This document shows positions 4,458 to 31,602 of a stretch of DNA of 32,650 bases, in pieces (the stretch's first letter is position 1; every line of letters starts with the position of its first letter). The DNA is from Lachnospiraceae bacterium (lineage in GTDB: Bacteria > Bacillota > Clostridia > Lachnospirales > Lachnospiraceae): positions 1-32,650 of the forward strand of contig JAIECJ010000159.1 in the NCBI GenBank assembly GCA_029068555.1, given 5' to 3'. The notes under the pieces are model-generated. The model made no database searches. It was not told the origin of the DNA and saw only the letters and a list, made by a program, of their open reading frames with translations. The translations under genes and the position numbers were made by a program.

Positions 4458-7400
4458 GTGAATAATATGGGACTACTGACGAAAAGTTTATCAAGTGAAG
4501 TAATAAAACAAGCAGCTGAAGCTCCAACGAGTATTGCGGTTGAATACAAAGATAAAAAGATTACATATTCAGAGTTGGTCTCTCAGATGATGCATAAGGC
4601 ATCCTTCTTTGAGCAGAAGGGAATCTATGATGAAAAGATCCTAATTCTCAAGGATAAAAGCGATGAGATTCCAACGGATATTTTGGGAATCATTCATTCT
4701 GGTAATGCTTTTGTACCACTACATGCACAATGGCCTGACAAGCAACTGATGACGGTCCTGTCAAATACAGAAGCTCGTTATATTTTTACAGAAGAAAGAT
4801 ATCTGGACAGGATATCTGAGATTGCTGAATTGGTAGGTGTAACACTTACTGTTTTGATTAGTTGTTCAAAAAATGATTATAAAAAGAATAATCTTCTAAT
4901 CGAAAACCTGGGTACACCGGATTTTGATAAAAATATAAATTTTCCCTTAAAGTACAATGACAAGTGCTATATTTACCATACCTCGGGTTCCACGGCGGAT
5001 GCCAAGGAAATCCTGGGGAGTCAGGAAAGCGTTCTGCATTTCATAGAATGGGAAAAAAGCGAATTTAAGATTGATGAGAAGATAAGGGTGAGTATGCTTG
5101 CAAGCATAACCTTTGATTCAGTGTTAAGGGATATCTTTTTACCGCTCATGTCGGGTGGAACCATTTGTATTCCTGAGGATGATGTGATTTATGACAGCAT
5201 TAAGCTTGCGGATTTCCTGCATGAAAAAGGAATAACACATATTCATACGGTTCCTACTCTGTATCGTGGGTGGATTGGTGAGATAAGAACAGGAATGATG
5301 CCTCATCTAAAGTATATCCTACTTTCGGGAGAACCGGTTGAAAGTGAAGACCTGCGAAGGTGCATGAAGGCCTTTTGTGGCCAGGTTCAATTGGTAAACC
5401 TATATGGGGCAACCGAGACATGTATGATCAGATTCTTTTACAGGTTACGACCAGAGGATTTGGAAAAAAGCGAGATTCCCGTAGGCTTTCCTCTTCCGGG
5501 TACCTGCGCAAAGATATTGAATGAAGAAGGTAGGGAATGCGCACCGGGCGAGGCCGGTGAGATTCATGTAATCACCGATCATTCAACTTATGGGTACTTT
5601 AATAACCCTAATCAAAATAAAAAGAATTTTGTAAAACTCGACGATATCAGAGCTGAATACAGAACAGGAGATATCGGCTATCTGGACGAAAAGGGATGCC
5701 TATACTGCGTCGGACGAAAGGATTATCAGGTAAAAGTCAGAGGAATGAAAGTCAATCTCAAGGAGATAGAGGAGATCATCAATTCCTACCCTGAAGTAAT
5801 GATGTCAGCTGTTGTTACGAAGATTGGAAGTACCGGAGAAAAAATAATTGCGGCTTACTATGTAGCAGAATCGGAAAAAGATCTTTACAAGGAACTCATC
5901 GACTATCTGGATAAATATCTTCCCTATTATATGGTGCCTTCTTTGTTGTGCCAGCTAGAGAGTCTTCCAAAACTTGTTAACGGAAAAATAGATAAAAGAG
6001 TTCTTGAGGAAATGCAGGATGTTGCCATAAAGGATGAGATTAAACATCCCTACACTGCAGATGAAATAATGCTTGCAGAGTTATGGACACAGGTTCTTGA
6101 AATTACTGAAACAAATATAGGCGTGGACCAGGATTTCTTCAGACTGGGAGGACAGTCTCTAAAGGCAGCGAAACTTGTTTACAGAATAAAGCAAGTCTTT
6201 GGAATTGAAATGCAGGTAAAGGATATTTTTATCCACAGAACCATTGTCAGCCAGCTTGAGTATATTTCAAAGAATTCAGATACTAAAATTGTCTTTGAAG
6301 CTTTAAAGCATGCGGATAAAAAGGCTGCCTATGGAGCGTCCATGGTTCAAAAAAGAATTTTTTATGCAGAAGCAGCAAGCAACACCCCTCTGTATAACAT
6401 GCCATTAGCATTCCTTTTAAGAGGAAATGTAGATGAGGAGAAGGTAAGAACTTCACTTCAGATTATTTTGGACAGACATGAGGCACTTAGGACAAATCTA
6501 ATGTTTGACGGCGAGATGATTGTTCAGAAGATATGGGATAAGAGAGAACTTCCCTTTGAAATAAGAGAAGCACTCGGAGGGACTATAAATGATATCCTTA
6601 CGGAATGCATCAGGCCTTTTAGCCTTGAGAAAGATGTTCTTTTCAGAGCGTATCTTTATTACATCGGGGACAAGGAATACATACTCTTCTGGGATATGCA
6701 TCATTGCATCAGTGACGGAATCAGTGAAGAAATAATAAAAAGTGAATTCATCAGACTTTACAAAGGGGAGGTGCTTCCTCCTCCGAAATATCAATATCGT
6801 GACTATTCCGAATGGATGCTAGGAAGAAAGCAGGATAATTCTTACTGGTTAAATGAACTGAAAAACGGAAATTTCAGTTTGAATCTCCCGACAGACTATA
6901 AACGAAGCAAAGACAGAAAATTCATTGGTTCAAATGAAAGGATTTTGCTAAAAAATGAGCTTTACAGAAAGCTGATTAACTTTGTAGAAAACGAAGGTTT
7001 GACACTGTACAGCATTCTGCTTTCAGCGATGTATATCACCCTTAGTCGCTATACGGGACAGAATGACATTATCTTAGGTACTGTAAGTTCAGGCAGAGAA
7101 ATTGAAGAAACAGAGGAGCTTGTGGGCCCTTTTATTTCAGTTTATGCCATGAGAAACATTGTAAAGGAAGATGAGAATGTCTTTTCATTTATAAGAAATG
7201 TATATGAAAAAACACTTGAGATGATGTCACATAGCAATTATAGCTTTAACGACCTTTTGGCAGAGCTACCTATATCAAGAAGCGGGACCAGACTTCCGCT
7301 CATTGAGACCATGCTGATTTTGCAAAACATGGATAAGGCAATTATGGAATGTGAGGGTATGACCATTAGGCCGTTGGAGGTTACTAGAGGAACATCCAAA

Positions 7401-10004
7401 TACGACTTGACATTATACGCAGTTCAAAATAGCGAGGGACTTCTTCTGGATATGGAGTACAGCACCGAATTGTTTGAGGCAGAGACTGTTGCAAAGATGC
7501 TGGATAGCTATGAGACGGTGCTAAACAATCTGGTGGTTGCTGAAAGGAACTGTAGCGTTAGTGCAATTCCTGTGCTTAACAGCCGAAGGAAATCTGAAAT
7601 TCTTGCAAGAAGCAATTGTGCGGAAAAACAGATGCTGCTTGAGGCTCGCTCCGTACAAGAGAAATTTGAAAATAGAGTGAAGTTATCTGGAGAACGAACA
7701 GCGATTACCTGTAAAGGAAGAAGCATCTCTTATGAGGAGCTGAATAAAAGGGCAAATCAGTTAGCAGGGAAGCTTATTTCAGAGGGAGCTGTCAGAGGCG
7801 AACTTGTTGGAATCATGATGCACAGGGATTTAGACATGATAGCGTCGGTTTTGGCGGTGCTTAAGACAGGATGTGCCTATGTGCCTATCGATCCTAGCTA
7901 TCCACAAGAACGAGTGGAGTATATGTTAAGCCACAGTAAGTGTAGACTTCTCTTGACAGATCAGGAATCTGAAAGTTATGACCAGACCCCACTTCTGAAA
8001 AACCGTGTGACTCAGATTTCTATTAAAGATGTGACAATAAATTCATTTCCAACTGACAACCCTGAAGTGGAGGTTTCCTATGAGGATTTGGCCTATGTGA
8101 TCTACACCTCAGGTTCAACAGGGAAGCCCAAAGGAGTAATGCTTAAGCAGGGTAATGTGGTGAACTTCATAGAGGCAATGTGCAGAGAAATCGATTTTTC
8201 GCAGGACCAAAAGATACTGTGCCTTACCACAATATCATTTGATATCTTTGTACTGGAGACGCTTATTCCGCTTTCGCAAGGCATGGAAATAGTTCTTGCC
8301 ACCGAGGATGAACAACTAGATGTGGGCAAAGTTGGGGCGCTGATCAGGGAAAACAATGTCAGTATCATGCAGAGCACTCCTTCAAGACTTGAGATGTTCA
8401 TGGAAAACAAGAAGGCAGGAGAACTACTGGAAGGAATTAGTACGTATCTTCTTGGAGGTGAGCCGGTTAAGGAAAGTACATTCAGAAAGCTGAGGGAGAT
8501 AGTAACCGGTGATACTGAAATCTATGATGTTTACGGCCCTACGGAAACTTGTGTATGGAGCACGATAAAAAAGCTTGAGAAGGATAAGCCAATAACCATT
8601 GGAAAAGCTATAGGAAATACCAGGCTATATGTGCTAGATAAGGACAAAAATATACTTCCAGATAATGTTGTGGGAGACCTCTATATCGGAGGGATGGGAG
8701 TAGCAAAAGGATATCTTAATAACCCTGAACTGACAGAGGAAAGATTTGTATCAAATCCCTTTGTAGAGGGCGAGATCATGTACTGTACCGGTGACAAAGC
8801 GCGTTGGAACAGTGACGGTGATCTGGACTTCCTTGGAAGAGACGATGGTCAGGTCAAGGTAAGGGGATATAGAGTAGAACTTGGAGAAATTGAAGAAAGC
8901 ATCCTAGTAGATCCTGATGTGCATAGCTGCGCATGTATTTTAAAACAGGATAAAAGTGCTAATGAAAATTACATTCTGGCGTTCTATTCGTCGGACTCGG
9001 AAATCGAGAACACAAGGCTCTATGCCAGAGTTAATAAGAATCTTCCGTTCTACATGATTCCCAAAGACTTCATTTATCTTGAAAAGTTACCTTCGACTCC
9101 AAACGGAAAAGTGGATCGAAAAAGCCTTTGCCAGTTGCAGATTGCAGTAAATACGAAGTATGACAATCCACCTTCAGCAAAGATTAACTTTGATAATCCT
9201 GAGGAGGAATTTATCTGGAATACCTGGAAGGAAGTTCTTTCCAGAGAGTACTTGGGGCTGGACGACAATTTCTTTGAAACCGGAGGCAATTCATTGCTTC
9301 TTGTTAGAATTTTTTACAGGATTGATGAGAAATTTCCGGAGGTAATAAGTCTGGCAGAGATGTTTTCAAATCCTACCATAAGGATGACTGCAGAACTTAT
9401 TAGATCCAGGCTGTATGTGGACAAGGAGATTGAAAAAAAGCGAATGCCTGTTGCAGGAATCCGGCTGAAGGAAGGCTACAAACCGTTTATTCAGACGGGA
9501 AGCATTAAAGGGCAGGAGCTCAAGGTACTTAAAAGGATTTGTGAAAAGAAAAAGCTTGAGATTGAAGAGATTATGTTTGCAATATACGCCTTTATTGGTG
9601 CAAAGATCACAGGAGAACGAGACATCTATATACAATGCCTTATCTCCGATGAAGAAGGAATCGAAAAGCAGGTGGATCTTAAAGAAACACATAGTTTTGA
9701 AGACTTGTTAAGACGAGCGTCAAATGCTTATAGGAAAGGCCAGGAAGCTGCTGAGGTCTATCGTGTTCAGGATGTGAAACAGGCCAGCGGTAGGGATGAA
9801 AAGAGTGTTTTCCTATCATACACATACAATAGAAATCCTACCTGCAGTAACCTTGAGTTGATGAACATGTGCATGTGTGTCAATGATGATGATGAAAATC
9901 TGCATTACCGCATGATCACCAATAAGAATTGTGTCATAAATGAATTTTCAGAAAAAATATTTGAAGCATTTAACGACACCTTAACAGGTGTAATCATAGA
10001 ATAA
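4458..10004 (+). CDS. Non-ribosomal peptide synthetase, A-T-C-A-T plus a C-terminal half condensation domain (1848 aa)
   Basis: It activates two amino acids and joins them. A1 spans about 14-520. Its A3 core is altered (T-S-G-S-T-A-D-A-K-E instead of T-G-x-P-K-G, Lys183 kept), but Y-G-A-T-E-T, Y-R-T-G-D and the C-terminal N-G-K-I-D-K lysine are normal. T1 has Ser567 in G-G-Q-S. The C domain (about 625-1060) has an intact H-H-C-I-S-D-G (748-754). A2 (about 1065-1560) is canonical. Aligned to GrsA, its pocket reads D-I-L-Q-L-G-V-V-W-K, close to the known glycine code D-I-L-Q-L-G-L-I-W-K. A1 reads D-S-R-H-L-S-L-M-I-K, which I cannot assign. T2 has Ser1612. Residues 1665-1848 resemble only the second half of a C domain and lack H-H-x-x-x-D-G. 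There is no starter C and no E domain. The start is GTG 4458 or ATG 4467, neither with a clear ribosome binding site; it may rely on coupling to the permease 13 bp upstream. Confidence 0.95.
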   Translation: MNNMGLLTKSLSSEVIKQAAEAPTSIAVEYKDKKITYSELVSQMMHKASFFEQKGIYDEKILILKDKSDEIPTDILGIIHSGNAFVPLHAQWPDKQLMTVLSNTEARYIFTEERYLDRISEIAELVGVTLTVLISCSKNDYKKNNLLIENLGTPDFDKNINFPLKYNDKCYIYHTSGSTADAKEILGSQESVLHFIEWEKSEFKIDEKIRVSMLASITFDSVLRDIFLPLMSGGTICIPEDDVIYDSIKLADFLHEKGITHIHTVPTLYRGWIGEIRTGMMPHLKYILLSGEPVESEDLRRCMKAFCGQVQLVNLYGATETCMIRFFYRLRPEDLEKSEIPVGFPLPGTCAKILNEEGRECAPGEAGEIHVITDHSTYGYFNNPNQNKKNFVKLDDIRAEYRTGDIGYLDEKGCLYCVGRKDYQVKVRGMKVNLKEIEEIINSYPEVMMSAVVTKIGSTGEKIIAAYYVAESEKDLYKELIDYLDKYLPYYMVPSLLCQLESLPKLVNGKIDKRVLEEMQDVAIKDEIKHPYTADEIMLAELWTQVLEITETNIGVDQDFFRLGGQSLKAAKLVYRIKQVFGIEMQVKDIFIHRTIVSQLEYISKNSDTKIVFEALKHADKKAAYGASMVQKRIFYAEAASNTPLYNMPLAFLLRGNVDEEKVRTSLQIILDRHEALRTNLMFDGEMIVQKIWDKRELPFEIREALGGTINDILTECIRPFSLEKDVLFRAYLYYIGDKEYILFWDMHHCISDGISEEIIKSEFIRLYKGEVLPPPKYQYRDYSEWMLGRKQDNSYWLNELKNGNFSLNLPTDYKRSKDRKFIGSNERILLKNELYRKLINFVENEGLTLYSILLSAMYITLSRYTGQNDIILGTVSSGREIEETEELVGPFISVYAMRNIVKEDENVFSFIRNVYEKTLEMMSHSNYSFNDLLAELPISRSGTRLPLIETMLILQNMDKAIMECEGMTIRPLEVTRGTSKYDLTLYAVQNSEGLLLDMEYSTELFEAETVAKMLDSYETVLNNLVVAERNCSVSAIPVLNSRRKSEILARSNCAEKQMLLEARSVQEKFENRVKLSGERTAITCKGRSISYEELNKRANQLAGKLISEGAVRGELVGIMMHRDLDMIASVLAVLKTGCAYVPIDPSYPQERVEYMLSHSKCRLLLTDQESESYDQTPLLKNRVTQISIKDVTINSFPTDNPEVEVSYEDLAYVIYTSGSTGKPKGVMLKQGNVVNFIEAMCREIDFSQDQKILCLTTISFDIFVLETLIPLSQGMEIVLATEDEQLDVGKVGALIRENNVSIMQSTPSRLEMFMENKKAGELLEGISTYLLGGEPVKESTFRKLREIVTGDTEIYDVYGPTETCVWSTIKKLEKDKPITIGKAIGNTRLYVLDKDKNILPDNVVGDLYIGGMGVAKGYLNNPELTEERFVSNPFVEGEIMYCTGDKARWNSDGDLDFLGRDDGQVKVRGYRVELGEIEESILVDPDVHSCACILKQDKSANENYILAFYSSDSEIENTRLYARVNKNLPFYMIPKDFIYLEKLPSTPNGKVDRKSLCQLQIAVNTKYDNPPSAKINFDNPEEEFIWNTWKEVLSREYLGLDDNFFETGGNSLLLVRIFYRIDEKFPEVISLAEMFSNPTIRMTAELIRSRLYVDKEIEKKRMPVAGIRLKEGYKPFIQTGSIKGQELKVLKRICEKKKLEIEEIMFAIYAFIGAKITGERDIYIQCLISDEEGIEKQVDLKETHSFEDLLRRASNAYRKGQEAAEVYRVQDVKQASGRDEKSVFLSYTYNRNPTCSNLELMNMCMCVNDDDENLHYRMITNKNCVINEFSEKIFEAFNDTLTGVIIE

Positions 10005-10020
10005 AAAGTAGGAGAAAAAA

Positions 10021-11262: not shown

Positions 11263-11303
11263 TATCTAGCTGAATGAATTAGAAAAGGGTTACAAATGGA
11301 CAT

Positions 11304-14300
11304 ATGATTGATTATTTATTAGATTTTTCAGGAATTTCCGTTAATGAAAATGAGAAGAAAAAAAAAGAACAAAGTGATGGAATCGCAATAATCGGTATGA
11401 CGGGCTCCTTTGCAAATGCAGAAGAGACGAAGGATTTCTTTGACGCACTTCTTAAGGGGCGGGATCTGGTAAGGGAAATTCCTTTAAAGAGATTCGAAGC
11501 AGTAAAGGACTATATTCCGGGAAATAAACGAGTATGCAGAGCTGGATATAGCGAAGACATTAGTTGCTTTGATCATGAGTTTTTTGGGATTTCCTATAAT
11601 GAGGCCTGTTTTACAGATCCGCAGCAGAGACTGTTCCTTGAAGCGGTATACCATGCACTTGAAAATGCAGGCTATGCAAATGAATCGCTAAAGGGTGCAA
11701 GATGCGGTGTATACGCAGGGCAAAGCGCAGATCTTTCTGTGGAATACAGCGTTCTCGTTGAAAAGGCAATACCGGAGCGTTACAGCGAAATTTCAGTTCC
11801 TGGAAATATCAGATCGGTCATGGCTGGAAGGATTGCATATTACTTTGATCTTCATGGGCCTGCAATGATTATCGATACAGCTTGTTCATCAGCACTCACG
11901 GCAGTCTGTGCTGCATGTGATGCCATCAGAAACGGCCAGATTGATATGGCCATAGCGGGTGGTGTTAAAGCGGATATTTTTCCTGTTATGGAAGGACTAG
12001 ATAACGAGATTGGAATAAGGTCCTCAAGGGATCTGTTGAAGACCTTTGATGATTCATCAGATGGAATTAGTTCTGGTGAGGGATGTGCAGTAATCATCCT
12101 AAAGGATCTAAAAAAAGCTATAGAAGACGGAGATCATATTCATGCTGTTATTCGTGGCTATGCAGTAAATAACGACGGAAATAGCATTGGTGTTACGGCA
12201 CCAAACCCTGTGGCACAGCAGGATGCGATATGCCGTGCATGGGAAATGTCCGGAATTGATCCGGAAGATCTTGATTATGTCGAGACCCACGGAACTGGAA
12301 CGAGACTGGGAGATCCCATTGAAGTTGAGGGCCTTACAAAAGCGTTTAACAAATACACGGACAAAAAAAGTTTTTGCGGAGTGGGATCAGTAAAGACCAA
12401 CATAGGGCATCTTGATAATCTGGCAGGAATTGCGGGACTTTTTAAGGTTGTTGAGATTCTGAAAACAGGGGTGATTCCCCCATCACTGCATTTTGAAAGA
12501 CCGAACAGAAATATTGATTTTGTAGATTCCGCATTGTATGTCACTGACAGCTATGAAAAGCTTTCGGAAAAAGACAGGCCTTATCTGTGCGGTATTAACA
12601 GTTTCGGACTTGCAGGAACCAACTGCCACATGGTCTTAGAACAATATAAGGCTTCTACATATGAGCAAAAAGATGAGAATGAACAAAAGCAATTGTTTGT
12701 CTTATCCGCAAGAAATCCTGATGTACTTCTTGAACTATGCAGGAACAATTTTGAGCAGATTCGGCTAAGCAGTGATAGTCTCTCGGATATATGCTATACA
12801 GCTATGTCAGGAAGATATTCTTACGAATATAGAATTTCCCTGATGGTCTGCAGCAAGGAAGAACTTGTGAATGAGTTGGAAAAAGTGATTGCTTCCGGCA
12901 AAACCGCTTTTTCCAAAATTGATAGAAATATCAGCAGACAACAAGAGCAGAAAATGCAGGAGCTGAGTCTCCTGTTCATGGAATTTCGCGAAGAGAGTGT
13001 GATTGAAAAGATAAGAAGCCTCTACTTGGAGGGTACAGCACTTCTTCCGGAAATTCTTTATGAAGGCATTGAGGTTCACAGATGTGAACTTCCCGTGTAT
13101 CCCTTCAAAAGGACAAGGTGCTGGATTCCTACAGACAGTAGCAATAAGGATTCCCTAATCGATAAATGTCTAGTTCGAACTGGAAACCTGATGGTTTATG
13201 AGACTGAGTTTTCTGAAAAAAGTCATTGGGTTTTAAGAGAACACAAGGTAAATGGGAAGTATATTCTTCCAGGGACAGCTTATATTGCGAGTCTGTTTTC
13301 AATTCTTGATCAGTTAAGCCAAGAGATGAAAACAGTATCTATAAAGAATATGTTTTATTTACAGCCGGTGGTTCTTAACAAAGGAGAAGCGCGAAAAGTA
13401 ATCTTTAGCTTAAGGCGGCAGGAGGATGATATCATCTTCGAGATCGGAAGCTTTGAGAACAAGGATAATGACGAGAAGTGGATTCTTCATGCCATTGGAA
13501 GCATAGGATTTTCAGATAAAGAAGGAAATGAGATTAAAAAGATAAAATCAGATGATCAGGGTGAAGCAGTAGAAGAACGAAGCATTACCGTGGATATTGG
13601 AAAGCACTGGACTGATTTGGAACGAAAAGTCTGCAAAATCTCTGAGTCGGAATATGAAACTTACTTCGGTATTCCTGAGGCGTCGGCATTTGAGGCACAA
13701 AAGACAAGGATTTATGCGCCTGCACTTGATAGGGCAATGAACGTGGTAAACGCTATTGCTGGCGAGGGGACTTATCTTCCTTTCTCCTTTGCGGAGCTTG
13801 AACTATATGAAAACATGCCACTTTCGTTTTATTCGGACACAGTAATCAAAGAAGTTAAAGACTCTATGATCCGCGTGGATGTCAGCTTGTATGACACAGC
13901 TGGAAAAGTCTTTTGCAATATTAAAGATTTTATCGTAAAGGGAATAACTGAGGCAGGGGATGCGTTTGAAAAAACTTCGCCTGTACAGCTTTCGAGACTT
14001 ACATGGATAGAGATGCCTTTGGGATCGCAGGAGGAATCACCCCAGAAGAAAAAGTATATCTGCATTTCAGGGGGCGAGAAAGTCTCGGAACGTATAGAGA
14101 ATCTGGTAAAAGAAAGTTTTGCCTCGGCAGAGTTTGCGTTTACTCATTCTTGCGAAGCAGTACTTAATAACTGTAAAGCTGCTTCCAGAATAGTGATTAT
14201 CGCTGCTTTTTCTGGAAAAGAGTCTGTATATGAGCTGCTCGATCTTGTAAAAAAAGTGGAGAAGGCCGGAATCAGCTCTAGGACAGAAATTGTTCTTATA

Positions 14301-15716: not shown

Positions 15717-15728
15717 GGAGTTAATGTT

Positions 15729-20525: not shown

Positions 20526-20541
20526 GTGGAGGCTAAAGGAC

Positions 20542-23500
20542 ATGGCACAGAAAAAAGAGATTAATCAATATATTTTAGAAAAAGTAAAAGACGGAAGTAT
20601 TGATAGTGAAATGTCACTGGAGATTCTTAAGGAGCTTAACGGATATAAAAGAAGCGAAGATGATATCGCTATCATAGGTATATCTTGTAGATTCCCTTCA
20701 GCTGACGACAAGGATGAATATTGGGAGAACATTAGAAATTCCAGAGGACTGATAGGAAGTTTTCCCGAGGAAAGAGCCAGGGACATTGGCAAAGGAAGTG
20801 GGTTAAAAGCAGGTTATATTCAGCATATAGGAGATTTTGATCCTGCTTTCTTTAGAATCTCTCCAAAGGAAGCAACAGTTATGCACCCATCACAACGTCT
20901 TTTCCTAGAAGAATCATGGAAAGCGCTGGAGGATGCAGGATATTGTGGCAAAGACATGGACGGCGCCAACTGCGGTGTTTACGTTGGCATAGACCATTCC
21001 TATCAGATGGAGTACATCTCCAAAACGGTCGAGCAGGACTTGCTTACTATGTCAGGAGCTATGACCAGTGTGCTTGCAAGCCGAATTGCTTTCATCTTAA
21101 ACCTTCACGGCCCCAACCTTGTTGTTGATACAGCCTGCTCTTCAGGACTTGTGTGTACTCATCTTGCTTGTGCTGCAATCAAAAATAAGGAATGTGACAT
21201 GGCTATCGCAGGTGGTATGCATATTCTAGGAGTTATGGATGCCAAGTTCGATGGAGTAGATTCTCAGAATGGTATGGTAAGGTCTTTTGATAAGGACTCA
21301 CAGGGTACGCTCTGGGGCGAAGGTGTTGGATTTATTGTTCTTAAGCCCTACAAACTTGCAGTAGAAGACCATGACCATATTTATGCGGTCATAAAGGGAA
21401 CAGCTATAAACAACGATGGAAAGACAAACGGAGTAACCTCACCAAGTTCAGAGACTCAGGCAATGGTTGTTGAAAGAGCCTGGAAGCAGGCCAAGATCGA
21501 TCCTGAAAAGATCTCTTATATCGAGGCGCATGCAACAGGAACGAAGCTTGGAGATCCTATTGAGGTAAAAGGCTTAAAGATGGCTTTTGAGAAGTATACT
21601 CAGAAGAAACAGTTTTGCGGAATCGGCAGTGTTAAACCGAACATTGGACATGGGGTAAGTTCAGCATCAATTTCTTCTCTTATCAAAGTTATCATGGCAA
21701 TGAACGCCAAGGAACTTCCTCCAGTGATCAATTTTGATGCACCAAATCCTTATATTCAGTTCCAGGATTCTCCCATGTATGTAAATGACAAACTCAGGGA
21801 GTGGAAGCCTATAGGCGAAAAGAGACTTGCGGGTGTCAGCTCATTTGGATTTGGCCGTACGAATGCCCATGTGGTGCTTGAGGAAAGTCCTGTTAATGAG
21901 AAGGATCCCAGCCCAAGAAAATGGAGAAATGTGTTTACTCTTTCCGGAAAAACAGAAAAAGCATTATTTGATTATATAAAGAAATACCAGAAATTTGTTA
22001 AAAAGAATCTTGATTTTGATGTCGATGATTTTTGCTATTCCGCAGCAATAGGAAGGCTGCATCACGATTATCGTCTCTGCATCATAGCGGGCAGTAAGGA
22101 AGATCTTATAAACAAGATCAGTAGTATTTCATTTCCTCTTAAGAACTCAGAGTTTGTTTACTATGGCGTTCACAAGGTAATAGCTGAGAAGGAAGAAAAA
22201 CTTAATGGCTATGAGATTACCGAAAGTGAGAAGAGAAAGATATCAAGAGATGCAGCAACTCTCCTTGAAGTGGAAGACAAGAATTCGGTGATTAATGAAG
22301 TCTGCAGACTTTACGCACAGGGTGCGGATATTGAGTGGAAGCAGCTCTACAGTGACAGATACTACAGAAGAATGCCACTTCCCACCTATCCTTTCCAGCA
22401 CAAGCACTATTGGGCAGAACTCTCCAAGCAGCCCTTTGGCCAGAATACTAATGCTGTTGAAAAGCCTTTTCATCCCCTTATCGACAAGCTGGCAGTCAAC
22501 TCTGTGGAGCAGGATATTTATGTTACTCAGTTTGAGATTGGCAAGCAGTGGGTTTTGACAGAGCACCTCATCAACGGTATGAGTGTAATCCCAGGAACTG
22601 CATATATAGAGATGTTGGTTGAAGCAGGTAAGCGATCACTCCTTTGTGAGCAAGTGGCTCTCAGTGATGTTATTTTTTATGCCCCTGTTGTTATCGGTGA
22701 GAAAGGAAAAGAACTTCAGACAATCTTAAAGCATACAGATAAATGCTTTGCGGCTTCGATCGTAAGTAAGAATGAAGCAGGACAGTGGGTAACCCATGTC
22801 AAAGCTAATATCAGTGAACTTAAGGAAGAAACTCCTGAGCCAATGGATATTTCCAAGTTAAAAGAAATCTGTAATAAGGAAGAACTTCATATCGACCTTA
22901 CCAAAGAAAACGGTGGATTCAGATTTGGTCCCCGTTGGAGAAATATCGGAACTATTACCATCAAGCAAGGACATGTTCTTACAGAGATTGCAATCGATAA
23001 TAAATTTAAGGCAGATATGTCTGAGTTTAATATCCATCCTGCAATGCTTGATAATGCAGCTAATATTGCTTCGGAGTTTGTGGCACAGAACATTACTCAT
23101 GATATGTTTCTTCCGTTTACATACAATTCGTTAAAGCTGTACAAGTCCCTGCCTGAGAGATTCTACAGCTATCAGATTATGAAAAATGACATTGATAAGG
23201 AAACAAGTGTAGTAAATCTTGATGTTTTCCTTGTGGCTGAAAATGGCGAAGTTATAGCAAAGATTGAGAAGTATTCAATAAAGCGTGTTAAGAGAAATGA
23301 GATCAGCAAACATAGCGAAGGTCTTCCTCTTTATCACGAAGTAAGGCTTGTTCCCAAAGCTATTGATAAGAAGGCAAATGATGAGGAGCCTAAGAAGCTT
23401 CTCGTTATAAAGGGTGGAACTGCCACAGAAGAGAGAATAACAGATTTCTATAAAAACAAAGGTGCAAAGGTAGTTGTTACAACTATTGGAAAAGACCTTG

Positions 23501-25233
23501 ATGGAAGCCAGGAGTCCTTTGCAAGCTTCTTTGAAAAAATAAATATTGATGAAATAGATGCAGTTCTTTACACTGCGGGCATCCTTGCAGACAAGGACAT
23601 GGATTCCTATGAGACCTTTAAGGAAGCTAAGAAAAACACAGTACTTAGTTTCTATAATTTCCAGAAGGCCCTAGCTGACGTAAGAAGATCCTCTAAGACA
23701 AAAATCGTCGTATTTGCCGATCATGCAAGAAGGGTTGGAGACAAAGAAGCTCTTAGCAATCCCCTCGGAGCAGCATTATTTGGTCTTGCACAGGTTTCTG
23801 CAAAAGAGTTTAAGAAGACCAACATTCGTTGTGTCGATATAGACGAGGCGACTAACTTTGAAATAGTAGATGCAGACATTATGTCTGATGTTAAGGAAGA
23901 CGGAGTGATAGTATATCGTGACAACAGAAGATATGGCGAAGCTCTTGGCATCTTCACTGAGGAGAATGTTGGAGAAGCACAGATCCCTGTTAAGAAAGAT
24001 GGAGTATATGTTATCACAGGTAGTATCACAGGTATTGCTAATGTGGTGTCCGAAATGCTTCTTAAAAAGGAAAAAGTTAACTTGGCCTTCATCTGCAGAA
24101 GCGGTGTTCCGGAGTGTGATAAGTGGGACGGAATCTTGGAATCTGGCGAAGACAAAAAGACAGTTGAGAAGGTAACTTTGCTTAAAGCATTAGAGGAAAA
24201 GGGGGCTGTAACTCGAGTATTTGCCTGCGATGTAACAGATTATGAAGGAATGAAGACCGTTATCTCAGAGCTTAGAACGCAGTTTGGACATATTAACGGT
24301 ATCTTCCACGGCGCTGGTCTTCCGGGTAACTCACTTATTCTTAACAAGCCAGTGGAAGATTTTGATAAGGTTATTGCTCCAAAGATGGAAGGAGCATGGG
24401 TGATCGATGATCTCACAAAAGATGACAGACCTGACTTTATGATTCTTTTCTCATCCATCTTGTCAAGGTTCGTGCCTATGGGACAGTCCGACTACGCATC
24501 TGCAAATGCCTTCCTCAATGCCTATAGCTGCTATAGAAGAGACAAGGGCAGCAGGACATCAACATTGGAGTGGTCTGTATGGAACGAAACAGGTATGGCT
24601 CTGCAGTTCAATATGGATGATTTGAGAGGAACTTTCTACTGTGTAACAAACCAGGACGGAGAGAGAGCACTTGAACTGGCAATGAACAGAGATGTAAGGG
24701 ATGTTCTTGTAGGAAGTCTTGATTATGAACGAGTTGCCCAGTATGGCGGCGACATCGGATTCCCTGTGGATGAGGAACTTGAAAAGCAGTTCAAGAAGCT
24801 TAAGGGCACCAAGGAAGATAGCAAAGGTAATTCCAAGAGACCTGCAAAAGAGATCAAGATAATTTGCAAGGAAGAGATTTCTGATATTGAAAGAGTTGTT
24901 GCTAATATCTGGGGCATGGTTCTTGGAGCAGATGAAGTTGACGTAAATGACAACTTCTATGAGCTAGGAGGAGATTCCATTATTGCCACAGAACTTGTAA
25001 ATGCCATCAACAGTGAATTTAATGATGTTATCGATATCTCTGATGTGTTTACCTACAGCAACATTAAGAGCCTTTCCAAGTACATTGATAGCATAGTAAA
25101 TAAGGAAAGTAAGGCGACTGAAAAAACCACTGAAGAAGAGACATACACAGTTGATGAAATCATGGAACTTGTTGATGAAGGTTCAATTAGCCTGGAAGAT
25201 GCAGATAAGCTTCTTCAGAAGATTCAGAACTAA
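20542..25233 (+). CDS. AT-less type I polyketide synthase, KS-DH-KR(degenerate)-ACP (1563 aa)
   Basis: This is the third polyketide module. The N-terminal docking segment (6-33) contains D-G-S-I. KS (about 41-448) has Cys199, His330 in E-A-H-A-T-G-T (Ala where the other three have Gly) and His370. DH (about 645-915) has H675-x3-G679-x4-P-G and Asp837 in H-P-A-M-L-D. The KR catalytic residues Ser1304/1305, Tyr1318 and Asn1322 are present. Its NADPH loop, however, reads T-G-S-I-T-G-I-A (1159-1166), where the other modules have T-G-G-x-G-x-[LI]-G. The usual Asp of the L-D-D motif is Asn. KR activity is therefore doubtful, which would leave the DH without substrate. The ACP serine is 1479. The C-terminal docking motif reads V-D-E-G-S-I-S-L-E-D-A. 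A strong GGAGG (20526-20530) lies upstream. Confidence 0.95.
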   Translation: MAQKKEINQYILEKVKDGSIDSEMSLEILKELNGYKRSEDDIAIIGISCRFPSADDKDEYWENIRNSRGLIGSFPEERARDIGKGSGLKAGYIQHIGDFDPAFFRISPKEATVMHPSQRLFLEESWKALEDAGYCGKDMDGANCGVYVGIDHSYQMEYISKTVEQDLLTMSGAMTSVLASRIAFILNLHGPNLVVDTACSSGLVCTHLACAAIKNKECDMAIAGGMHILGVMDAKFDGVDSQNGMVRSFDKDSQGTLWGEGVGFIVLKPYKLAVEDHDHIYAVIKGTAINNDGKTNGVTSPSSETQAMVVERAWKQAKIDPEKISYIEAHATGTKLGDPIEVKGLKMAFEKYTQKKQFCGIGSVKPNIGHGVSSASISSLIKVIMAMNAKELPPVINFDAPNPYIQFQDSPMYVNDKLREWKPIGEKRLAGVSSFGFGRTNAHVVLEESPVNEKDPSPRKWRNVFTLSGKTEKALFDYIKKYQKFVKKNLDFDVDDFCYSAAIGRLHHDYRLCIIAGSKEDLINKISSISFPLKNSEFVYYGVHKVIAEKEEKLNGYEITESEKRKISRDAATLLEVEDKNSVINEVCRLYAQGADIEWKQLYSDRYYRRMPLPTYPFQHKHYWAELSKQPFGQNTNAVEKPFHPLIDKLAVNSVEQDIYVTQFEIGKQWVLTEHLINGMSVIPGTAYIEMLVEAGKRSLLCEQVALSDVIFYAPVVIGEKGKELQTILKHTDKCFAASIVSKNEAGQWVTHVKANISELKEETPEPMDISKLKEICNKEELHIDLTKENGGFRFGPRWRNIGTITIKQGHVLTEIAIDNKFKADMSEFNIHPAMLDNAANIASEFVAQNITHDMFLPFTYNSLKLYKSLPERFYSYQIMKNDIDKETSVVNLDVFLVAENGEVIAKIEKYSIKRVKRNEISKHSEGLPLYHEVRLVPKAIDKKANDEEPKKLLVIKGGTATEERITDFYKNKGAKVVVTTIGKDLDGSQESFASFFEKINIDEIDAVLYTAGILADKDMDSYETFKEAKKNTVLSFYNFQKALADVRRSSKTKIVVFADHARRVGDKEALSNPLGAALFGLAQVSAKEFKKTNIRCVDIDEATNFEIVDADIMSDVKEDGVIVYRDNRRYGEALGIFTEENVGEAQIPVKKDGVYVITGSITGIANVVSEMLLKKEKVNLAFICRSGVPECDKWDGILESGEDKKTVEKVTLLKALEEKGAVTRVFACDVTDYEGMKTVISELRTQFGHINGIFHGAGLPGNSLILNKPVEDFDKVIAPKMEGAWVIDDLTKDDRPDFMILFSSILSRFVPMGQSDYASANAFLNAYSCYRRDKGSRTSTLEWSVWNETGMALQFNMDDLRGTFYCVTNQDGERALELAMNRDVRDVLVGSLDYERVAQYGGDIGFPVDEELEKQFKKLKGTKEDSKGNSKRPAKEIKIICKEEISDIERVVANIWGMVLGADEVDVNDNFYELGGDSIIATELVNAINSEFNDVIDISDVFTYSNIKSLSKYIDSIVNKESKATEKTTEEETYTVDEIMELVDEGSISLEDADKLLQKIQN

Positions 25234-25244
25234 GGAGGGCTGGA

Positions 25245-25964
25245 ATGAGGAATAGTGTTAATTTATTTTGCATCCCTTATGCTGGAGGAAATGCCTCTGC
25301 ATACAGATGTTTTATGGAGCATCTTGATTCTGAAATAGTTCCCTATTTCATTGAACTGGCAGGACATGGAAGACGCATGGGAGAAAAACTCAAGTCCAGT
25401 GTTATGGAAAATGCAGAGGACATTTACTCACAGATCAGTGCCAGACTTGATGGAACGCCATTTATATTATTTGGCCACAGCATGGGAACATTGTTGGAAT
25501 ATGAGGTATTAAAGTTGATTCAGGAGAGAAAGGGCATGGCTCCGATCCATGCCTTCTTCTCCGGAAGATATACTCCCGATGTTTTTACATGGGAAGAGCA
25601 CTATAAGCTTCCGGAGGACCACTTCCTTGCAATGCTCAGACTGTACGGAGGGACTCCCGATGAGTTCTACAGCAGTCCTGAGCTGATACAAATATTTCTT
25701 CCTATCATTCGCAATGACTATCAGGTGGTGGAAACCTACAATTTTGGCAAGAAAAAGGTATTTGATGCTGACTTTACCGTAATGGCAGGAAGAGAGGATT
25801 GTATTGTATCCGGAGAGCAGCTGGAAGAATGGAAAACATATACAACGGGAAGATGCGATGTCCATATGTTCAATGGCGATCATTTCTATCTTTTCAAAGA
25901 GCCGCGGTCGGTTTGCGAGCTGATCAATAATGTGGCGCACGAATGGCTGGATAGGAGAATGTAA
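25245..25964 (+). CDS. Type II thioesterase (GrsT/SrfAD-like, 239 aa)
   Basis: This alpha/beta hydrolase clears wrong or stalled acyl groups from carrier-protein arms of NRPS/PKS lines. Features are the N-terminal C-I-P-Y-A-G-G oxyanion loop (9-15), L-A-G-H-G-R (38-43), the nucleophile Ser79 in G-H-S-M-G, a probable Asp near 185 in G-R-E-D, and the catalytic His213 in N-G-D-H-F. The length matches the family. GGAGGG precedes the ATG, and its stop TAA directly abuts the ATG of the next PKS gene (25965). Because the last module ends in a reductase, this enzyme is an editor rather than the release enzyme. Confidence 0.92.
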   Translation: MRNSVNLFCIPYAGGNASAYRCFMEHLDSEIVPYFIELAGHGRRMGEKLKSSVMENAEDIYSQISARLDGTPFILFGHSMGTLLEYEVLKLIQERKGMAPIHAFFSGRYTPDVFTWEEHYKLPEDHFLAMLRLYGGTPDEFYSSPELIQIFLPIIRNDYQVVETYNFGKKKVFDADFTVMAGREDCIVSGEQLEEWKTYTTGRCDVHMFNGDHFYLFKEPRSVCELINNVAHEWLDRRM

Positions 25965-28900
25965 ATGGAGAATTACAGCGAATTAAATAAATACATCCTC
26001 AAGAAAACAATCGATGGTTCCATAGAAAAAGAATATGCATCAAAGATTCTGAAAGCTATTTCCAATGAAAAAATTCAGGAGGATTATGCTATCATCGGCA
26101 TGGAGTGCCGTGCCGCTAATAATGATACCAAGGAGGAACTGTGGAATAGTATTATCAGCGGAGGAAGCGGTGTCAGGAAGATGCCGCAGCAGAGAATCGA
26201 CCAAGTAAAAAGTGTACTGAGGCTTCCGGAATACTCCGACAGTGCGAACATGGGTTATCTTAACAAAATAGATGAATTTGATCCTTCCTTTTTCAGGATA
26301 TCCAATCGTGAAGCTAAGATGATGGACCCAAAGCAGCGAATGTTTCTTGAGGTATTCTATAATGCCCTAGAGGACGCAGGCTATTCTGCGGAAGAACTCT
26401 CGGGGAAAAAGGTTGGAGTCTTCGTTGGCGCTGATCACAGCTCAGATATGCAGATGTCCTATAAGATGATGATGCGTGAAAACGATATGATGGGTGAGGC
26501 TGGAACAGTATCAGGAATCGTCGCAAGAAGACCGGCATACATCTATAATTTAAAGGGACCGGCAATTGTGGTTGATACCTCCTGTTCATCGTCACTTGTT
26601 GCGGTACATACAGCATGTCAGTCTATGCGCAATGGGGACTGTGAGATGGCCGTGATTGGCGGTATCAATATGGTTTTCTATACAAGCAATGAAGGAAAAT
26701 TCAGTGATATCGAGTCCCAATCCGTGATGATCCGAAGTTTTGATAAACATGCCAACGGAACCAACTGGGGAGAAGGTGTAGCTGCCGTTGTATTAAAACC
26801 GTTGAAGGCAGCGCAGAGAGATCATGATAATATCCTGGCCGTATTAAAGGGGACCGGAATAAATAACGACGGATTATCCAATGGAATCGTTTCCCCAAAT
26901 CCGGAAGCTCAGGAGGAACTTATCTGCCAGACCCTCAAGGCTGCCAAGGTTGACCCCTCCACGATTTCTTATGTGGAGTGTCACGGTACAGGCACTATAG
27001 TCGGTGACCAGATCGAGATCAGAAGCCTTACCAATGTCTATAGTAAATACACTGATAAGAAGCAATATTGCGGAATCGGAACGATAAAGCCAAATATTGG
27101 ACACCTCGTAGGAGCCTCTGCGCTGGTTAGTATTGTAAAGCTGGTTATGGCAATTGATAAGCGCATTATTCCTCCAAGCATTAATTTTGAAACGCCCAAT
27201 CCTTTCATCAGATTCATAGAATCACCCTTTTATGTGGTTGATAAAGAGACTGTGTGGGGAGAGGCAGGGAAGCCTGTTCGAGCAGCTATCAATTCCTTTG
27301 GCTTTTCGGGAACCAATACTCATGCGATTTTTGAGTCGGCACCAATTAAGGAAAATGAAAGCAATGCAGATGAATATGAGCTTCTGACGGTTTCGTCCAT
27401 GCACAAAAGGCTTATGCCTATGTTTCTGGAAAGATACATCGCCTTTTTATCGGAGAGAGAAGATCTGAATTTTGCGGATTTCTGCTACACAGCTAACAAG
27501 GGAAGACGAGATTGCAAGAACAGAATGGCATTTGTTGTAAAAAACAGAGAAGATGCTATTTCTCAGCTGAAAGAGGCATTGGACAAGTTGCAGAGAGGCA
27601 CATACATTTTTACTTCAAAGACCGAGGAATTGCAGGCCGGAATGCGGGAAATGCGAGGATATGTTGCCGGGTATATCGAAGCTGAAAGGAATAATAAGGC
27701 CATTCTTAATGAGATTGCAAATCTTTATGAGCAGGGTGTCGATGTTAAGTGGGAGAAATTCTACGAGGGCTGTGATCGATATAGAATAAGCATTCCAGTA
27801 TCACTTTTCAAAAAGACATCCTATTGGATCGATCCGGACGAAAAGTTAATGGATGGCTACGAGGGAGACACAGGCTTTGAGACTAAGAAGAATATAACAG
27901 ACGGAATTTATAGACCTACCTGGAGACTATCGGAAAAGAAAAAAGCAAACAGACAAAATTGCCGTTATCTCATTTTCGGAGACGGAGATGAGTTCTCAAA
28001 AGCAGTTGAGGAGATGCTTTCTGACGAGGGACTGGAGGTCTGCAACATTGTCAGAAGCAGGAGAAAGGGAGAGGCCTTTGTTGTTGATCCGAAGGATGAT
28101 AACAGCTACAGAGGAGTTCTTGAGAAAATCGGCTCGGCAGATGACAAGGAATATCAGGTTATCTATCTCTGGGGTATTAAGGATACTGATCCGGTGGAAG
28201 CCTATAACAATCTGGTAAGTCTTCTTAAGGCATTGTCGTTCTCTTTATCCGGAGCAACAATAAAAATAATCACAGACAGAGCCTTTACTATTACGGGAGA
28301 TGACAATTATCTGGGTGGAAATTACCAGAGCATGTTACTTGGATTATGCAGGACTGTTGAAAGAGAGATTACTGATATCAGATGCGAATGCGTTGACATT
28401 GTCAAAGAGGAGATAGCAGATGTTCTCGGATCAAAGCAGCTGTTTATTGATAAAATGTGCACCAACGGCGACCATGTGATTGTGGGAATCCGCAAAGGAT
28501 TGTGCTTTGCAGGAAGTCATGAGAAAATGATAATACAGGATGATTGGGAGACAGAAACTCATTTTAGGGAAAATGGAACATATCTGCTCACCGGAGGCTG
28601 CGGGGCCCTCGGAAGTGTGATAACTGAGTATCTAGTCAATGAATTCAATGCAAACGTAGTATTACTGGTAAGACACGAATTCGGAGATCTGAATGAATGG
28701 ATAAAGAATCATAGAGAAAGTGATAAAAACTATAATTCCATAGGCAAGATAAAAAATCTTATTGAAAATGGCGCGAATATCTCCATAATGAGTACAGATA
28801 TCACTGATGCTGATGTTTTGCAGGAGGTGGTAACTGAGGTCGAGAAGAAATATGGCAGTATTAATGGCGTTTTCCATCTTGCAGGTGTCAAAGGAGGAAA

Positions 28901-30917
28901 ACTGATTCAGGCTCAGCAAAGAAATGAGACCAATGATGTATTTGATGGTAAGGTTCGTGGACTTCAGGCACTTGATAAGGTCTTTGCCTCAAAGAAGATT
29001 GATTTTATGATCCTGTTTTCATCACTATTGAATTATTTTGGCGTACCCGGACAAAGTTCCTATATTTCTGCAAATACATACCTAGATGGATATGCGGAGA
29101 AGGCGGATGAGGTATATCGCGGAAGAAAGACAATAAGTATCAACTGGGATAATTTCAGCGATTTCGGAATGGCAGCAGAGCTTAACATCTATGGTAAACA
29201 GCAGAAGGATTTGGCCTATAGCTTTAGGAACGGACTTTTGTTCACGGATTGTATGAAGGCCATCAGGATTGCCATGGGTAAGGGGAGATCACATCTTCTT
29301 GTTTCGTTTAAGGATATGGATAAACTTAAGGATCATTTAAAGCAAAAAGGAATGCTTTCTGACATTGAGGTGACATCAAAGGCAAAGAAGGTGTTTTTTG
29401 AGAGACAGGAACTTTCTACTGAGTATGTTGAACCTAGGGATGAAGTTGAAGGATTTTTTGCTCAGGTATGGTCTGAACTTTTCGAGATTGATAAAGTAGG
29501 CGTCAAAGATAATTTCTATGATCTTGGCGGTGATTCTATTATAGCCATAAAGTTTGTAACTGCAGTTAAGGACAAATACCAGATCGGTGTCGGTGATGTA
29601 TTTAAATATCTTACGATAGAGGGCCTTGCTCGCTTTGTGACATCCGGACAGGATGATATAAAAGAAAAGTTTGAGAAAGCCAAGCATTCATTGATGAGTA
29701 TGGCCAATCCTGTAGGACTTATTCCTGAGGAAAAGGAAAGAGAAGAGAGGTATCTAGCCGGTCTTGAAGAACTGGAAAAGACTGATTTTTCAAAAAAGAA
29801 GGAGTTTAAAAACATTCTACTTCTCGGAAGCACAGGATTCTTGGGCACATATCTGGTTAGAGATCTGATGACAAAGACTTCGGCAGATGTGACACTGATT
29901 GTAAGAGGAGGAACCGATTCCTCAGCGGAGATGCGTCAGAAGGAGATCCTTGATGAGTTCTTTGGACAGGAATTTTACGAAAACTATTCTGATAGACTGC
30001 ATATTCTGGGCGGTGAAGTATGCGAGAAGAACTATGGGCTGTCAGATGAAGAGTATGACAGACTTTGTCAGGATATCGACTGCATTGTAAATTCAGTAGG
30101 TAAGGTTGATCATTATGGGAAATACGAGGACTTCTATGAAGCAAATGTTGTCTCTGTTGAGAACATTATTAAAATGGCAAAGACAGGAGTAGCCAAGGAG
30201 ATCCATCACATTTCCACAAAGGGTGTAGCTATGGGAGATATCAAGAACCGTGAAGAGGTAGTGTTTACGGAAGATGATATTGACTTTGGCCAGGAGATTC
30301 CCAACTACTATACCAAGTCCAAGAATTTAGCCGAGAAACTGCTGATGAAAGCCAGAGAGGAAGGCATCTTCGTAAATGTTTACAGAACTGCGGACATTAT
30401 CGGTGATTCCGTTACAGGAAGATTCCAAAAAAATATTGATAAGAATGCAGTATATCTGGAGGTTCGTGCGATTCTAAATTTCGCCTGTGTAATGGAATCG
30501 GATATAGGTATCTGGGAAGTTTCTTTTGTCGATGTTGTGAGCAGCTTCCTTGTGGCGCTTATGATCTCCGAGGCAGCAAAAAATCAGATATACCATCTTT
30601 ATAGCAGTGAACGAATTTCTATTAATGATTGGAGTAAGGCTTTTGCAAAGCTTGGAATTGAAAAGCAAGGAGTTAATCTGGAGGACTTTTTGGATTATCT
30701 TTATGAGAACATCGACAATCCTGAACAGAAGGAATATGTTAATGACTTCCTTCTTCACACAGGTATTTTGGAATGGGGAGAAACAACCCGTTACAAAATA
30801 ATGTCTGATAAAACTGAAGCAGCACTTTCCGAACTGGGACTTAAATGGGAGAGACCCACAACCGAACAACTTGTAAATATCCTTGTTTACGGAAGAAAAG
30901 TAGGATTTTTTAGGTGA
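25965..30917 (+). CDS. Terminal AT-less polyketide synthase, KS-KR-ACP-thioester reductase (1650 aa)
   Basis: This is the last module: it adds two carbons, reduces the beta-keto group to an alcohol and releases the chain reductively. The docking segment (5-33) contains D-G-S-I. KS (about 40-458) has Cys207 in D-T-S-C-S-S, His340 and His380. There is no DH: after the post-KS linker (about 470-625) comes the KR structural half, then T-G-G-C-G-A-L-G (876-883), Ser1019/1020, Tyr1033 and Asn1037. The L-D-D Asp is Gly (V-K-G-G-K), so an A-type KR is plausible. The ACP serine is 1191. The C-terminal 370 residues are a short-chain-dehydrogenase-like terminal reductase. It has G-S-T-G-F-L-G (1288-1294), Thr1418 after I-S, and Y1449-x3-K1453. 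The family uses NAD(P)H to release an aldehyde, sometimes an alcohol. Confidence 0.95.
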   Translation: MENYSELNKYILKKTIDGSIEKEYASKILKAISNEKIQEDYAIIGMECRAANNDTKEELWNSIISGGSGVRKMPQQRIDQVKSVLRLPEYSDSANMGYLNKIDEFDPSFFRISNREAKMMDPKQRMFLEVFYNALEDAGYSAEELSGKKVGVFVGADHSSDMQMSYKMMMRENDMMGEAGTVSGIVARRPAYIYNLKGPAIVVDTSCSSSLVAVHTACQSMRNGDCEMAVIGGINMVFYTSNEGKFSDIESQSVMIRSFDKHANGTNWGEGVAAVVLKPLKAAQRDHDNILAVLKGTGINNDGLSNGIVSPNPEAQEELICQTLKAAKVDPSTISYVECHGTGTIVGDQIEIRSLTNVYSKYTDKKQYCGIGTIKPNIGHLVGASALVSIVKLVMAIDKRIIPPSINFETPNPFIRFIESPFYVVDKETVWGEAGKPVRAAINSFGFSGTNTHAIFESAPIKENESNADEYELLTVSSMHKRLMPMFLERYIAFLSEREDLNFADFCYTANKGRRDCKNRMAFVVKNREDAISQLKEALDKLQRGTYIFTSKTEELQAGMREMRGYVAGYIEAERNNKAILNEIANLYEQGVDVKWEKFYEGCDRYRISIPVSLFKKTSYWIDPDEKLMDGYEGDTGFETKKNITDGIYRPTWRLSEKKKANRQNCRYLIFGDGDEFSKAVEEMLSDEGLEVCNIVRSRRKGEAFVVDPKDDNSYRGVLEKIGSADDKEYQVIYLWGIKDTDPVEAYNNLVSLLKALSFSLSGATIKIITDRAFTITGDDNYLGGNYQSMLLGLCRTVEREITDIRCECVDIVKEEIADVLGSKQLFIDKMCTNGDHVIVGIRKGLCFAGSHEKMIIQDDWETETHFRENGTYLLTGGCGALGSVITEYLVNEFNANVVLLVRHEFGDLNEWIKNHRESDKNYNSIGKIKNLIENGANISIMSTDITDADVLQEVVTEVEKKYGSINGVFHLAGVKGGKLIQAQQRNETNDVFDGKVRGLQALDKVFASKKIDFMILFSSLLNYFGVPGQSSYISANTYLDGYAEKADEVYRGRKTISINWDNFSDFGMAAELNIYGKQQKDLAYSFRNGLLFTDCMKAIRIAMGKGRSHLLVSFKDMDKLKDHLKQKGMLSDIEVTSKAKKVFFERQELSTEYVEPRDEVEGFFAQVWSELFEIDKVGVKDNFYDLGGDSIIAIKFVTAVKDKYQIGVGDVFKYLTIEGLARFVTSGQDDIKEKFEKAKHSLMSMANPVGLIPEEKEREERYLAGLEELEKTDFSKKKEFKNILLLGSTGFLGTYLVRDLMTKTSADVTLIVRGGTDSSAEMRQKEILDEFFGQEFYENYSDRLHILGGEVCEKNYGLSDEEYDRLCQDIDCIVNSVGKVDHYGKYEDFYEANVVSVENIIKMAKTGVAKEIHHISTKGVAMGDIKNREEVVFTEDDIDFGQEIPNYYTKSKNLAEKLLMKAREEGIFVNVYRTADIIGDSVTGRFQKNIDKNAVYLEVRAILNFACVMESDIGIWEVSFVDVVSSFLVALMISEAAKNQIYHLYSSERISINDWSKAFAKLGIEKQGVNLEDFLDYLYENIDNPEQKEYVNDFLLHTGILEWGETTRYKIMSDKTEAALSELGLKWERPTTEQLVNILVYGRKVGFFR

Positions 30918-30924
30918 GGATGTC

Positions 30925-31602
30925 ATGCAACTATTTTTTCTTGAAGATGTGCCTACTGAGTGGGAGGACAGGCATAGTGAAATGCTTCCTGTCCTCTCGG
31001 TGGAAAGAAGAGAACGTATAGCACATTATAGGTTCTCTTCGGATAAGTTATTGTCATTATATTCTGCAGTATTAGTTAGGTACGCAATTGACATGGCAGG
31101 TGTACTTCCTGACAGTTGCAGACCTACATTTTCTGGCGGTATCAATGAAAAACCTTTTTGTAACGAAGCGGCTTTTCTTGATTTTAGTATTTCTCATACC
31201 CATGACGCTGTGTTATGCGGCACCACCTCTATTGGAAAGATTGGCGTAGACCTGGAGCCGTTAAGAGAAGCACCTTTTGAAATAATGAAGATTGTTTTCC
31301 ATGACAATGAAATTGTCGAAATATCCTCCCATAATTCGGAAAGCGACCTTAGATTTTTTAAAATGTGGACACGAAAAGAAGCTTATACCAAGTGCATTGG
31401 AACAGGACTTGTAGCCAATCTGACTCAGATTGATACAACCGAAAGCGTTACTAATGAAAGAACCATTACATGGCAGGAAGGCAAATATATCTGCTCTGTC
31501 TATGCGGATAAGGACAGGTTTTCACAGATAAGCCGTGTGAGTTGTGAAGAACTGGAAGATTATTGTAGAAGCAAGATTATTATAACGAATTTTTTGAATT
31601 AG
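30925..31602 (+). CDS. Sfp-type 4'-phosphopantetheinyl transferase (225 aa)
   Basis: It converts the six carrier domains of this pathway to their active form by attaching phosphopantetheine from CoA. The family motifs are F-S-I-S-H-T (87-92), G-V-D-L-E-P (107-112; Mg-binding Asp109 and Glu111) and W-T-R-K-E-A-Y-T-K (148-156). The length is normal for the Sfp group. GTGAGGA (30914-30920) overlaps the PKS stop and lies 4 nt before the ATG, so it is the last gene of the coupled operon. Its stop (31600-31602) is immediately followed by IS1182-like sequence. The insertion may thus have landed right at, or slightly inside, the original 3' end. Confidence 0.93.
   Translation: MQLFFLEDVPTEWEDRHSEMLPVLSVERRERIAHYRFSSDKLLSLYSAVLVRYAIDMAGVLPDSCRPTFSGGINEKPFCNEAAFLDFSISHTHDAVLCGTTSIGKIGVDLEPLREAPFEIMKIVFHDNEIVEISSHNSESDLRFFKMWTRKEAYTKCIGTGLVANLTQIDTTESVTNERTITWQEGKYICSVYADKDRFSQISRVSCEELEDYCRSKIIITNFLN

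Follow-up and report, generated by a model that had tools for sequence, protein, structure and literature searches.

The closest characterised relative found for the locus described here is the cluster (efi) of the nasal antibiotic epifadin on plasmid pIVK83 of S. epidermidis IVK83, whose genes run in the order NRPS, AT, PKS, PKS, oxidoreductase, PKS/NRPS, ABC, ABC, thioesterase, PPTase. In the accessible text of PMC11310079, the authors describe epifadin, whose polyene has its UV band at 330-410 nm, as the founder of a class of human-microbiome antimicrobials that are short-lived and broad-spectrum; they count three PKS modules for nine malonyl units and infer iteration, with no module identified in that text. 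The line, which also includes the oxidoreductase EfiO, ends in KS-ACP-C-A-T-CT, the part that makes an Asp tetramate. Iteration has also been proposed for solanimycin of Dickeya solani, which, according to the accessible part of PMC10204066, is made by AT-less modules too few for its polyene. A polyene aldehyde has been seen there too, but a mutant makes it as a shunt product, and the polyene comes ahead of the peptide, unlike in the line described here; for these reasons solanimycin was set aside as a model for a polyene aldehyde.

The window analysed here, by which is meant the whole stretch of 32,650 bp, is one entire contig (G000:C67), and probably encodes an epifadin-like trans-AT NRPS/PKS line, making a peptide-polyene that is released reductively. 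Pfam and motif searches recovered the complete domain string that had been put forward from the sequence-only reading -- A-T-C-A-T-half C, a free AT, KS-DH-KR-ACP three times, a TE, KS-KR-ACP-reductase and a PPTase (Table 1) -- and the ORF coordinates bear out its account of a single strand with gaps of 0-41 bp (13, 16, 41, 12, 16, 11, 0 and 7 bp in succession after 4444, from NRPS to PPTase). The four KS domains match ketoacyl-synt with E-values of 4e-66 to 3e-68, far beyond chance. No AT is found by Pfam inside any module and one separate gene encodes an AT, as had also been claimed, so that in this respect the line is of the trans-AT type, with the AT outside the modules and supplied by a separate protein. 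An Rfam scan of the window gave no match.

Table 1. Features of the NRPS/PKS locus and their positions in the window.
Feature	Position	Strand	Evidence
Asp/Glu racemase-like domain fused to ABC ATPase (DrrA-like)	1956..3587	+	PF01177 residues 10-220, PF00005 260-403
ABC-2 type permease	3584..4444	+	Pfam PF01061
NRPS, A-T-C-A-T-half C	4458..10004	+	Pfam: two AMP-binding, one Condensation, two PP-binding
Half C (C-terminal lobe of condensation domain, after last carrier)	9459..10001	+	Profile alignment
Free malonyl-type acyltransferase, GHSLGE, C-terminal extension of ~125 residues	10021..11262	+	Pfam PF00698 (Acyl_transf_1)
Module 1 (M1), KS-DH-KR-ACP, without N-terminal hairpin	11304..15716	+	Pfam, motifs
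Module 2 (M2), KS-DH-KR-ACP	15729..20525	+	Pfam, motifs
Module 3 (M3), KS-DH-KR-ACP, KR cofactor motif TGSITGIA	20542..25233	+	Pfam, motifs
Stand-alone thioesterase (TE), type II-like	25245..25964	+	Pfam PF00975
Module 4 (M4), KS-KR-ACP-reductase (thioester reductase, NAD_binding_4)	25965..30917	+	Pfam
Phosphopantetheinyl transferase (PPTase)	30925..31602	+	Pfam PF01648

Immediately 5' of the NRPS gene lie two genes that were absent from that earlier account, encoding what are probably the ATPase and the partner permease of an ABC exporter. The ATPase shares one open frame with a racemase-like domain, an arrangement with no other example among the matches listed for 60 genomes, and the fusion possibly reflects a lost stop codon or an assembly error. 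Further upstream, positions 1195-1360 hold an imperfect palindrome of 166 bp (arms of 82 nt, 73% complementary). The genome has at least 43 copies of it, which tie the contig to the rest of that genome. The Pfam DUF6783 (PF20574) match of an overlapping ORF is the translation of this palindrome, and the family itself may represent a MITE-like repeat read as protein. At 1414-1775 a truncated piece from the N-terminal end of a carboxyltransferase beta subunit (accD-like) was recognised by eye; it has no Pfam match. The C-terminal part of a DDE transposase (PF13751) lies directly downstream of the cluster, at 31661-32407.

The resemblance to epifadin is seen first in the order of the genes: an NRPS, then a discrete AT, then monomodular AT-less KS-DH-KR-ACP proteins, with TE, PPTase and ABC genes within the cluster in both cases. 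In a protein search of plasmids with M2, two staphylococcal plasmids came top (31.4% identity over residues 1-1595, 100% of the query), one of them pIVK83; the two ATs are 33% identical. There are differences too. The epifadin NRPS is longer and has more A domains than the two found here, and the line in the window has one more DH-KR module and a terminal reductase, with identity between modules of only ~31%. The tetramate-forming C-A-T-CT end was sought in the window, but no Condensation or AMP-binding match follows position 10004, nor was EfiO found there, so the line is not a member of the tetramate class.

More relatives occur among the Clostridia. AT homologues (E 1e-70 or better) were found in 15 of 391 genomes of the class, and relatives of M2 (E 1e-60 or better) in 7 of 299 genomes of the host family, probably Lachnospiraceae, which has at least 298 genera in the searched set; both counts include the window's own genome, and one genome, G113, has two similar lines. 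The clostridial NRPS-AT-PKS lines (G549 C49, G113 C22 and C28, G488, G571, G710, G591/G551) have ATs 37-52% identical to that of the window, share its KS clades and, in most cases, carry a half-C tail before the AT; unlike the window, the 11 AT-homologue locus sets scanned gave no reductase match. M4 has matches (E 1e-30 or better) in 9 of 60 genomes, its own included; those in the same genus (4 of 35) cover only the ACP-reductase part, and thus the PKS was not seen elsewhere in this genus sample. Among named genome contigs, a single scan turned up six distant relatives and no near copy. In G113 C28 (L031, 652-3594), two KS-DH-KR-ACP modules are followed by a 319-residue protein with no Pfam match, then by a KS-like protein of 653 residues whose expected Cys and His motifs were not located; a second AT comes next.

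A KS phylogeny and a comparison with characterised clusters had been proposed as the check on the line's identity. The tree has 73 rows and a midpoint root, with the KSs of macrolactin included and cis-AT references left out. KS1 of the window and the first KS of each G113 line group together (95/84), nested in a 100/98 clade that holds Efi_KS1. The KS directly after the AT falls in that clade in all ten lines compared (the window, Efi, G113C22, G113C28, G488, G549C49, G571, G591, G710a and G225), though the clade also has KSs from other positions. KS2 of the window lies with G549C49_KS2, the second KSs of both G113 lines and G488_KS4 (99/90), in a weaker group with Efi_KS2 (92/41). The macrolactin KSs, together with four KSs of other clostridial AT loci, are set off across a 100/99 branch (the 41-row side of this midpoint-rooted tree without cis-AT references). 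The check thus places KS1 and KS2 with epifadin-like lines and not with macrolactin; KS3, KS4 and Efi_KS3 show no supported grouping. A one-to-one match by best hit of window KS1-3 to EfiC-E was rejected, since by plain identity Efi_KS3 is the nearest Efi KS for all four window KSs (45, 51, 50 and 45%). Tree placement is therefore claimed for KS1 and KS2 only, and no one-to-one correspondence of modules with epifadin is drawn.

The dehydratases point the same way. All three in the window keep H-x3-G-x4-P and have D-x-x-x-N in place of D-x-x-x-Q/H, as do 16 of the 18 DHs in the printed alignment rows of the window, epifadin, G113, G488, G549C49, G571, G591 and G710a, against none of 9 in the printed rows of macrolactin, L019 and L020; judged from these alignments, the motif is a signature of this lineage. 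The macrolactin line of B. velezensis, a canonical trans-AT system whose locus we take from its gene layout to be the macrolactin one, also has AT-less modules and a separate AT gene, but D-x-x-x-N is found in none of its four DHs. An inactive or isomerase-like role for the window DHs was considered on account of the motif and rejected, since the 16 include both DHs of epifadin, a line that does make its product.

The other catalytic motifs are largely in place. The Cys and both His motifs (HGTGT, with HATGT in KS3, and NIGH) are retained in each of the four KSs, and K, S and Y in each of the four KRs. In KR3 the cofactor motif reads TGSITGIA, whereas the 34 other KR rows printed, those of KR1, KR2 and KR4 among them, have its GG; this damage bears out an earlier hint about the third KR, and KR3 may be weak, possibly leaving a ketone. 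In the alignment, the usual Lys is missing from the EfiC KR of pIVK83 (L039), which reads ISSVIIG there; this would be consistent with EfiD doing most of the reduction if the epifadin line is iterative.

The code of the second A domain, DILQLGVVWK, is Gly-like, as had been read before, when set against what we take to be the Gly code. G549C49 has the identical code in its final A domain ahead of the AT, and that of G488 is near it; a rule of Gly before the AT for the whole group was rejected, as the corresponding codes are DLSHAGMVWK in G591 and G551 and DISQYMCIWK in EfiA. The first A domain, DSRHLSLMIK, has no firm match. It has six of ten letters in common with what we presume to be the Ser code, too weak a match to assign Ser, and its substrate is accordingly written as X. 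The same extraction gave an Asn-type code for one EfiA domain and an Asp-type code for the EfiE domain, in agreement with the accessible text of PMC11310079.

The ~180 residues that follow the last NRPS carrier have no Pfam match of their own. When nine such tails were combined into a profile, it matched the second, C-terminal half of condensation domains (hhalign probability 98.2, E 3.8e-14, template columns 207-417), which confirms the half C that had been noted at the end of the NRPS. Among 31 A-domain ORFs compared, the tail is present in 8 of the 9 NRPSs directly upstream of an AT homologue, G710b being the one that has an AT next to it yet no tail, and in none of the 22 others (EntF among them) at a comparable score, with three weak matches. 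The E-values of the tail HMM are circular, as it was built from these same tails, and the tails were therefore also judged by leave-one-out, in which six are recovered (window, G488, G549C49, G571, G591 and G551, at 3.5e-17 or better), the window tail with 53.9 bits against 17.3 for the best other. The G113C22 tail stays at background (16.7 against 15.4 bits), the EfiA tail was not recovered, and the G710a NRPS lies outside the 31 ORFs. From this outcome the half C is well supported in several Clostridia, while in epifadin it is placed by position and length. An AlphaFold model of the half C, based on an alignment with a single further window row, had a mean pLDDT of 32. The HHxxxDG motif sits in the condensation lobe that is missing here; the half C should therefore not be a normal condensation catalyst, and we propose that it is a hand-off or docking element.

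The reductase that had been placed at the end of the line is supported by its NAD_binding_4 match (E 3.1e-49) and by a glycine motif and Y-x-x-x-K, both recognised by eye; the line thus ends in a thioester reductase with Y-x-x-x-K, and going by these motifs its product may be an aldehyde or an alcohol. At E 1e-40 or better, 8 of 392 genomes of the order, its own included, have a homologue, and each of the eight matches outside its own genome has an A or A-T unit directly upstream, with no KS within the ~1.5 kb flank. These NRPS thioester reductases of the dipeptide-aldehyde type are thus NAD_binding_4 proteins like that of the window, but follow an A-T module rather than KS-KR-ACP. Since their flanks have no KS and the 11 AT-locus sets no reductase, an NRPS-type reductase joined to such a PKS was seen, within these samples, only in the window. 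Mutanoclumpin, a PKS/NRPS product for which two-electron reductive release has been proposed, offers a similar comparison: its McgC has a NAD_binding_4 terminal reductase, but after an amino-acid module (A-T), according to the accessible part of PMC12403116. Neither a KS-KR-ACP-reductase line of this kind nor a half-C hand-off was found described in the literature searched, most subscription journals being outside its scope. The earlier statement that no described compound has this assembly line thus stands for the line as a whole in the searches made, but the related epifadin cluster, which that account did not name, is characterised.

The order M1-M2-M3-M4, which had been taken from the genes, is supported by hairpin-like short stretches, alike in sequence, at the ends of M1, M2 and M3 and the starts of M2, M3 and M4 (by eye), resembling at all three junctions the four-helix ends by which trans-AT lines dock (accessible part of PMC9113145). 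M1 starts without such a stretch, as do the first modules of both G113 lines (by eye), which sets the NRPS-M1 junction apart. With four modules in gene order, docking-like ends and intact motifs in all KSs, in the DHs and in three of the four KRs, each module might be used just once, giving X-NH-CH2-(CH=CH)3-CH(OH)-CH2-CHO, or a ketone variant if KR3 is dead. Unlike in epifadin, M3 has its own DH and KR and M4 a KR, enough domains for a plausible product without iteration. We nonetheless regard strict colinearity as unlikely: in epifadin three modules serve for nine malonyl units, iteratively according to its authors (PMC11310079, accessible text), so that chain length cannot be read from the number of modules, and the damage to KR3 breaks a simple triene. 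The exact product that had been predicted on this basis is therefore not upheld, the reductase leaving a choice of aldehyde or alcohol as well. It is very unlikely that the cluster is a recent acquisition now decaying or silent, its product no longer made, for although the PKS part was not seen in 35 same-genus genomes, a transposase fragment lies downstream, the palindromic repeat and the accD-like fragment (by eye) lie upstream, the racemase-ABC fusion is without a second example among the matches listed for 60 genomes and KR3 is damaged, the megasynthase genes are open over ~27 kb with no internal stop or frameshift in the ORF list, and nearly all active-site motifs are intact.

The epifadin-like, reductively released peptide-polyene thus remains the preferred reading. 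What the analysis establishes for it is the domains, their order, the active-site motifs and the relationship of the AT, KS1 and KS2 with epifadin-like lines; the chemical course, the role of the half C, export and product that we infer would be as follows. The NRPS would form X-Gly on its second carrier, and the lone half C behind that carrier would help the chain pass to M1, which has no N-terminal docking hairpin. The free AT would load malonyl onto the ACPs, and M1-M3 would build a polyene by cycles of KS, KR and DH, one or more of them perhaps used repeatedly, as inferred for epifadin, with the chain passing from M1 through M2 and M3 to M4 by way of helical docking ends. M4 would add the last unit, whose reduction would stop at the alcohol stage. 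Release by the terminal reductase would give a beta-hydroxy aldehyde or, if it reduces twice, a diol end. The TE would clear stalled carriers, the PPTase would prime carriers and the ABC pair would export the product.

We thus read this line as a reductively terminated sibling of epifadin-type lines, of interest for its mode of release and for the proposed half-C hand-off; the cluster seems to build a short peptide with a conjugated chain and to free it as a reactive aldehyde or an alcohol instead of closing a ring. More tentatively, it could mark a new release branch of epifadin-type lines, in which an iteratively made aminoacyl-glycyl polyene is freed as a reactive aldehyde and in which, across Clostridia, a half C links NRPSs with a trans-AT and with a first KS module that lacks the hairpin. 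Through the half C, the way in which an NRPS passes its chain on to a separate first KS module with no helical docking hairpin becomes open to experiment, and, if the line works as read, the epifadin machinery would reach beyond tetramates to aldehydes able to react with amines or to cyclise.
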